38,348 nucleotides of DNA, from the NCBI GenBank assembly GCA_005878985.1, contig VBMA01000077.1, positions 1 to 38,348 on the forward strand, in the 5' to 3' direction. Below are positions 1,520 to 8,905 of this stretch, piece by piece. Position numbers and translations under genes: made by a program. Each line of letters opens with the position of its first letter. Positions within the stretch are counted from its first letter, which is position 1. This DNA is from Methanobacteriota archaeon. GTDB lineage: Archaea; Thermoplasmatota; Thermoplasmata; RBG-16-68-12. Below the pieces are notes generated by a model. The model had not been told where the DNA came from. It saw only the letters and a list, made by a program, of their open reading frames with translations, and did no database searches.

Positions 1520-1593
1520 GGGGAGGTCCTCCCTGGGCGACCGTTTTCCACCTGGCATGCCACGCGCGCGCGAGCCGTACGGGCCCGCGGGGA

Positions 1594-1626
1594 CTTTCGG
1601 GGACCCCGCGCGCTCCGCAGGGCCCG
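1594..1626 (-). other. tRNA-Lys intron 3 (T-loop, position 59/60)
   Basis: A 33-nt intron. The central helix pairs exon TTCG (1632-1629) with intron CGAA (1599-1596). Bulges are AAC, cut AA|C, and AGT, cut AG|T. The inner helix starts GGG/CCC and the outer helix is the T-stem CGGGG/CCCCG. Splicing restores the invariant T-loop TTCGAAT. Confidence 0.9.
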
Positions 1627-1648
1627 TTCGAACCCCGGACCACCCGGT

Positions 1649-1679
1649 TTCTTTCCGCTCTCCGGTGAAGGAAGGCGGC
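1649..1679 (-). other. tRNA-Lys intron 2 (canonical position 37/38)
   Basis: A 31-nt intron. The central 4-bp helix pairs anticodon-loop CTTT (1685-1682) with intron AAAG (1654-1651). Bulges are TAG, cut TA|G, and AAA, cut AA|A. The inner helix is CCGC (1678-1675) with GCGG (1658-1655), and the outer helix is the anticodon stem. This is a textbook archaeal splicing-endonuclease substrate. Confidence 0.92.
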
Positions 1680-1695
1680 TAAAAGCCGGATGCTC

Positions 1696-1724
1696 TTTCT
1701 AGGGACGGTGTTGGTTCGCCATCC
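1696..1724 (-). other. tRNA-Lys intron 1 (D-arm)
   Basis: A 29-nt segment separates D-loop AGCTAGGTA from D-stem GAGC. Helix GATGG/CCGTC, 3-nt bulge TAG, helix CTAGG/CCTAG and bulge AAA form a bulge-helix-bulge-like fold. Because A occurs at both junctions, removing 1725-1697 or 1724-1696 gives the same mature sequence. The outer helix (D-stem) is separated by an unpaired AGC, so the motif is relaxed. Confidence 0.8.
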
Positions 1725-1794
1725 TACCTAGCTGAGCTACGGGCCCTCCGGCTAGCGGCGGCGACATGCGACCGTTTGCCAAAACGAGCCTTCG

Positions 1795-1801
1795 TATTAA
1801 A
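1795..1801 (-). promoter_or_regulatory. TATA box upstream of tRNA-Lys
   Basis: TTTAATA on the minus strand within ACTTTAATACG, about 50 nt before the mature tRNA 5' end, implying a short 5' leader for RNase P. It is the only clear box A ahead of the tRNA-Lys-rpoH-rpoB block. Confidence 0.5.
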
Positions 1802-1894
1802 GTTTGCGGTGCACGCGAACCTCGTTGGCCGGATCGAATCGGAGGGCCATAATTATCCAGCTCGCAGGATATAGATGGCTCGGGAGCACAACGA

Positions 1895-8763: not shown

Positions 8764-8905
8764 GGTTTGACGGCCAAAGCGGCGGGGATACACCCGGTCC
8801 CATCCCGAACCCGGAAGTTAAGCCCGCCCACGTTCCCTGCGGTAGTGCAGTGCGCGAGCCTGCGCGAAGCCTGCCTTCCTTTGAGGAAGGCTTGGGCCGA
8901 CGACC
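8764..8905 (+). rRNA. 5S ribosomal RNA, solitary, with an extra hairpin near helix V
   Basis: Archaeal 5S landmarks are present in order: GACGGCCAAAGCGGCGGGG, loop C CCCATCCCGAAC (8799-8810), CCGGAAGTTAAGCCCGCCC and helix-IV loop AGTGCGCGAGCC (8849-8860). Helix I pairs GGTTTGACGGCC (8764-8775) with GGCCGACGACC (8895-8905), with one bulge and one A-A mismatch. Between helix V and helix I, about 25 nt (8869-8893) fold into CCTTCC-TTTGA-GGAAGG and have no counterpart in ordinary archaeal 5S RNA, giving about 142 nt instead of 117-125. The ends are inferred from pairing and may be off by a few bases. No 16S or 23S gene is linked, which matches the unlinked rRNA genes of Thermoplasma. Confidence 0.87.

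Follow-up and report, generated by a model that had tools for sequence, protein, structure and literature searches.

Background

In the Thermoproteales, up to three bulge-helix-bulge introns per tRNA, at canonical and non-canonical positions, are removed by the splicing endonuclease EndA. The tRNA-Pro(UGG) gene of Pyrobaculum islandicum, for example, has introns at 25/26, 37/38 and 56/57, and the many intron-bearing tRNAs of this order contain introns that have apparently spread recently between genes (PMC4090602). Multiple tRNA introns outside the Crenarchaeota have been described in other euryarchaea, Korarchaeum, ARMAN and Asgard archaea (PMC4033280, PMC11291895). The EndA of ARMAN is of the epsilon2 type and that of Methanopyrus is a heterotetramer, while Korarchaeum combines an alpha2-type enzyme with non-canonical introns, its EndA being said to share the specific loop of the heterotetramer type (PMC4033280, PMC6379350). 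According to two reviews of 2014, homomeric enzymes in euryarchaea go together with single introns at the canonical 37/38 position (PMC4090602), and Korarchaeum is the only archaeon with both an alpha2 enzyme and non-canonical introns (PMC4033280); the latter review's list of multi-intron tRNAs does not include Thermoplasmata. Only heterotetramer and epsilon2 enzymes are considered to cut relaxed motifs efficiently (PMC6379350), but the group of Tocchini-Valentini reports cleavage of bulge-helix-loop-like motifs by homodimers as well (PMC8707768). The open literature on tRNA introns in Thermoplasmata, Thermoplasmatota, Thermoplasmatales and Methanomassiliicoccales yielded no description of such genes; the papers of Marck and Grosjean, Sugahara and Kaneta and the GtRNAdb database lie outside that scope.

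The tRNA-Lys(UUU) gene described here, from a thermoplasmatotal archaeon, resembles those of the Thermoproteales in its combination of canonical and non-canonical introns, and the statements of the 2014 reviews (PMC4090602, PMC4033280) do not hold for this organism.

A tRNA-Lys(UUU) gene with three introns

By direct reading of the sequence, the gene is 167 nt long and lies on the minus strand of the window (the whole stretch of DNA that was analysed, 38,348 nucleotides), with its 5′ end at 1746 and its 3′ end at 1580. From 1746 to 1580 its layout, with intron lengths in brackets, is GGGCCCGUAGCUCAGCUAGGU-[29]-AGAGCAUCCGGCUUUUA-[31]-ACCGGGUGGUCCGGGGUUCGAA-[33]-UCCCCGCGGGCCCG. In standard tRNA numbering, and all on the minus strand, exon 1 (positions 1-20; 1726..1746; GGGCCCG UA GCUC AGCUAGGU) is followed by intron 1 in the D-arm at 20/21 (29 nt; 1697..1725), exon 2 with the anticodon UUU (21-37; 1680..1696; AGAGC A UCCGG CUUUUA), intron 2 at the canonical position 37/38 (31 nt; 1649..1679), exon 3 (38-59; 1627..1648; A CCGGG UGGUC CGGGG UUCGAA), intron 3 in the T-loop at 59/60 (33 nt; 1594..1626) and exon 4 (60-73; 1580..1593; U CCCCG CGGGCCC G), with CCA not encoded. 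Positions 20/21 and 59/60 are known non-canonical intron sites (PMC4090602). The sequence-only reading had proposed a tRNA-Lys(UUU) gene with introns of about 29, 31 and 33 nt, sizes that parsing made exact, and a mature product of 74 nt. The joined exons do form a 74-nt tRNA with anticodon UUU, discriminator G and complete acceptor, D, anticodon and T stems, a full cloverleaf; this spliced structure, the orthologues at the level of genus, family, order and class, and the covariation of introns with exons agree on the identification.

The gene is easily overlooked. ARAGORN identifies the spliced 74-mer as tRNA-Lys(ttt) but returns nothing for the unspliced form; even when run with introns it misses the gene, as does the Rfam tRNA model, because neither was designed to handle more than one intron at non-standard positions. 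A splice-aware search had one match in the window, namely this gene, and no match in 25 Markov-shuffled copies of the window (1.9 Mb, both strands). The unspliced strand, freely folded, has z = -5 relative to shuffles. When the genome was scanned with a T-loop-intron pattern, this gene was recovered together with many unsorted matches, most of which resemble coding sequence.

A possible archaeal TATA element, AAACTTTAATA (1795..1805, minus strand), is located about 50 bp upstream of the tRNA by sequence reading, and is visible in several congeners too. The motif GCGACCGTTT flanks the gene on both sides (1538-1548 and 1768-1778, about 230 bp apart). A 5S rRNA gene is at 8766-8886 of the window on the plus strand, and no other rRNA genes were detected within the window.

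Splicing junctions

Introns 2 and 3 each have a complete bulge-helix-bulge, with 3-nt bulges on both sides of a 4-bp central helix, and the exact helices that had been claimed for them (CTTT/AAAG and TTCG/CGAA) are present. At intron 2, the central helix CUUU/AAAG has bulges UA^G and AA^A (carets marking predicted cuts) and the anticodon stem as its outer helix; at intron 3, UUCG/CGAA has bulges AA^C and AG^U and the T stem as its outer helix. Intron 2 is exactly of the canonical 37/38, strict bulge-helix-bulge kind known from archaea, whereas introns 1 and 3 are in the D-arm and T-loop. The D-arm intron had been read as a looser version, a description that fits its outer side only. Its central helix is an exact 4 bp (CUAG/CUAG), with a 3-nt 5′ bulge (GU^A) and an inner helix of six pairs; on the outer side, the 3′ site is in a 2x3 internal loop instead of an outer bulge because A14-G15 faces AAA (AA^A) ahead of the D stem. 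The intron 1 junction is a relaxed, bulge-helix-loop-like motif, and a stacked outer helix is absent from the D-arm junction in all parsed orthologues. The exact cut register is a predicted one, ambiguous by one A at the D-arm junction.

Conservation in Thermoplasmatota

With the unspliced gene as query, matches were found in 108 of 120 relatives. Every parsed gene from the same genus, the same family and the same order (six sampled families of the order) has the three introns, and in these orthologues the spliced tRNA is 95-100% identical to this one while the introns fall to 42-70% identity; the comparison with relatives that had been suggested returned the same three sites. Among 88 distinct genes parsed from the phylum, a non-random sample, since similarity to this gene or a D-intron pattern brought in most of its members, 38 have all three introns, 32 have the D-arm and T-loop introns, six the D-arm intron only, six the D-arm and anticodon introns, two the T-loop intron only and four none. 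In an independent pattern scan of 390 genomes sampled from the phylum, 61 genomes, belonging to 32 of 156 genera, had a D-arm intron at this position, and a reversed control pattern gave no match. Members of other classes of the phylum have D-arm or D-arm and anticodon introns. The D-intron pattern had no match in several well-sampled families (f11, f19 and f22), from which all four of the parsed intronless tRNA-Lys(UUU) genes come; to judge from genome size and EndA length, cultivated groups may be among these families. Two or three of the introns are common to relatives across much of Thermoplasmatota, an occupancy of the same sites over much of a phylum that differs from the recent spread between genes in the Thermoproteales.

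By EndA, the closest named relatives are metagenome assemblies called 'Euryarchaeota archaeon isolate EA_n', with scaffold names that carry depths of 20 to 40 cm (which we take to mean soil), followed by 'Thermoplasmata archaeon' and 'Methanomassiliicoccales archaeon' assemblies. The gene was sought in 19 of these relatives and matched in all 19, 13 of the matches being parsed as three-intron genes, among them the copy in the one-contig chromosome CP070767.1. Variants of the arrangement were observed in two families. In family f14, seven tRNA-Lys(UUU)-like genes (L210, L212, L213, L218, L220, L221, L230) have a D-arm intron and a T-loop that begins GGTCCGA, and were left unparsed because the finder requires TTCGA; a T-loop intron is apparently present as well (four of the seven were read by eye). 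In family f17 (L207, L214, L226, L229), the 59/60 T-loop introns are far longer than usual, 66 to 119 nt.

Covariation of introns and exons

At the D-arm junction, 49 distinct sequences have 94% of cells paired, and the central-pair percentage is biased upward because the finder that chose the segments prefers paired central helices; the inner helices, which were not used for choosing, also covary. Two-sided changes at this junction number 106, compared with 31 in shuffles (0/500), and the covariation score is 0.41 versus 0.13, dropping to 0.07-0.13 if the partner is slid by one column. Three of the four pairs of the D-arm central helix have compensatory changes (e.g. CUAG/CUAG, GUAG/CUAC, CCAG/CUGG, UUCG/CGGA). 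The T-loop junction (score 0.40 versus 0.16 in shuffles, 0/500) and the anticodon junction (0.39 versus 0.21, 0/500) exceed shuffles on most measures by way of their inner and outer helices. Their central helices vary in one-sided (A to G) changes only, with no two-sided changes, because the exon side is fixed by tRNA function. Some copies of the anticodon junction among the parsed genes are imperfect.

Splicing enzymes

A single 378-codon frame encodes EndA, which contains two PF01974 repeats, the catalytic motifs being in the second, and aligns along its length with the homodimeric enzyme of A. fulgidus (1r0v, E 3e-27, residues 24-349). Two PF01974 matches are the rule among relatives that have a match (111 of 120), and the Tyr/His/Lys motif region is present in every EndA compared. 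The Crenarchaea-specific loop is absent from all 105 Thermoplasmata EndA compared: the region has six residues in 105/105 of them and in the wild-type A. fulgidus enzyme, versus 16 in the loop-bearing A. fulgidus chimera 3P1Y. Separate catalytic and structural subunits, the mark of the Thermoproteales type, were not found in this genome. Thus, a check of the endA type that had been suggested identified, by sequence, a single fused homodimer-type (alpha'2) enzyme without the loop, in contrast to the loop-bearing heterotetramer of the Thermoproteales, and the sequence-only reading's appeal to a heteromeric endonuclease of that kind is therefore not applicable. Its companion statement that homomeric enzymes prefer strict motifs proved too coarse, since the homodimer, unlike the homotetramer, is described as able to cleave bulge-helix-loop-like motifs (PMC8707768). 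Being strict, introns 2 and 3 need no relaxed enzyme, and intron 1 fits the reported ability of the homodimer (PMC8707768). The ligase RtcB is also present (565 bits).

Other tRNA-Lys genes

A second intact tRNA-Lys(UUU) gene, named in advance, together with an absence of spliced reads, as what would speak against the three-intron gene, was looked for and not found in the 91% complete assembly: none of the genome's 35 Rfam tRNA matches is a tRNA-Lys (0/35), and the best matches listed when the spliced tRNA was compared with the genome by BLAST are tRNA-Asn and tRNA-Ile. Neither was tRNA-Lys(CUU) found in the genome, so the assembly lacks some of the tRNA genes or they went undetected in it. 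The Rfam matches also lack Trp, Tyr, initiator Met and other expected isoacceptors besides Lys-CUU, and some of the absent isoacceptors may be concealed by non-canonical introns. In some congeners and members of the order (L281-L284, L297-L299), tRNA-Lys(CUU) has introns at 37/38 and 59/60; in most parsed sister species it has the 37/38 intron only and in several members of the order none, a patchy distribution of the T-loop intron. The idea that the T-loop intron moved recently between tRNA-Lys(UUU) and tRNA-Lys(CUU) was considered and rejected, the similarity being not clearly above that of shuffled introns.

Interpretation

With a probability of about 0.94, the locus is the functional, and probably the only, tRNA-Lys(UUU) gene of this archaeon, and its three introns are spliced by the fused EndA and RtcB. 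The transcript would fold into three bulge-helix-bulge modules, the single fused homodimer-type (alpha'2) EndA would cut at six sites between the second and third nucleotides of the bulges, and RtcB would join the four exons into the 74-nt tRNA. Gene anatomy, conservation, covariation, the presence of both enzymes and the lack of the Crenarchaea-specific loop are directly established; transcription, cutting, joining and the order of removal we infer from them.

Standard tRNA finders see nothing at the locus and the genome is in 200 contigs, as might be expected of a decayed or misassembled tRNA-Lys gene with chance short insertions, but this is scarcely credible when each of the six families sampled in the order has insertions at these three sites, the spliced product is near-invariant and the junctions covary; the orthologues rule out a pseudogene or misassembly, and assembly fragmentation is not the cause because a three-intron copy also sits within the one-contig chromosome CP070767.1. 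It is very improbable, though a shade less so, that the gene is silent, a relic whose work is done by another tRNA, such as an undetected tRNA-Lys(UUU) encoded in the missing part of the assembly. A second gene there is conceivable because the assembly is 91% complete, and tRNA-Lys(CUU) was not found either, but no intact tRNA-Lys(UUU) is among the genome's matches, and selection is needed to keep the spliced sequence almost unchanged and the junctions paired across the divergence of an order.

The most serious alternative concerns the D-arm junction alone: EndA may splice the anticodon and T-loop introns, with the D-arm intron, for want of a stacked outer helix at its junction, needing an extra factor or a second endonuclease subunit that has escaped recognition. 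All parsed orthologues share this deficiency, none of the 105 Thermoplasmata EndA has the Crenarchaea-specific loop, and loop-less enzymes of this type are rated narrow in specificity (PMC6379350), which counts against removal of a relaxed intron by EndA alone. Even so, we consider an extra factor unlikely, given that cleavage of bulge-helix-loop-like motifs has been ascribed to homodimeric enzymes (PMC8707768) and that the genomes examined usually have just two PF01974 repeats.

Significance

Since homodimers are reported to cut bulge-helix-loop-like motifs (PMC8707768) and introns 2 and 3 are strict, the kind of object is already known, and what is new is the lineage, the enzyme context and the phylum-wide depth of conservation. 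The case shows why standard tRNA finders miss tRNA-Lys(UUU), the set of intron positions can be followed as gains and losses over a phylum, and the idea of enzyme-intron co-evolution becomes testable with an enzyme encoded by a single gene. Reviews tie non-canonical or multiple introns to heteromeric or loop-bearing endonucleases (PMC4090602, PMC4033280, PMC6379350), a pattern broken by a large share of Thermoplasmatota, most of it uncultured. On balance, we favour the view that the 20/21 and 59/60 introns of tRNA-Lys(UUU) have been present in Thermoplasmatota for a long time and that a loop-less homodimeric EndA removes the bulge-helix-loop-like D-arm intron in vivo. If so, the proposed coupling of specificity loops or heteromeric enzymes with non-canonical introns would be broken.
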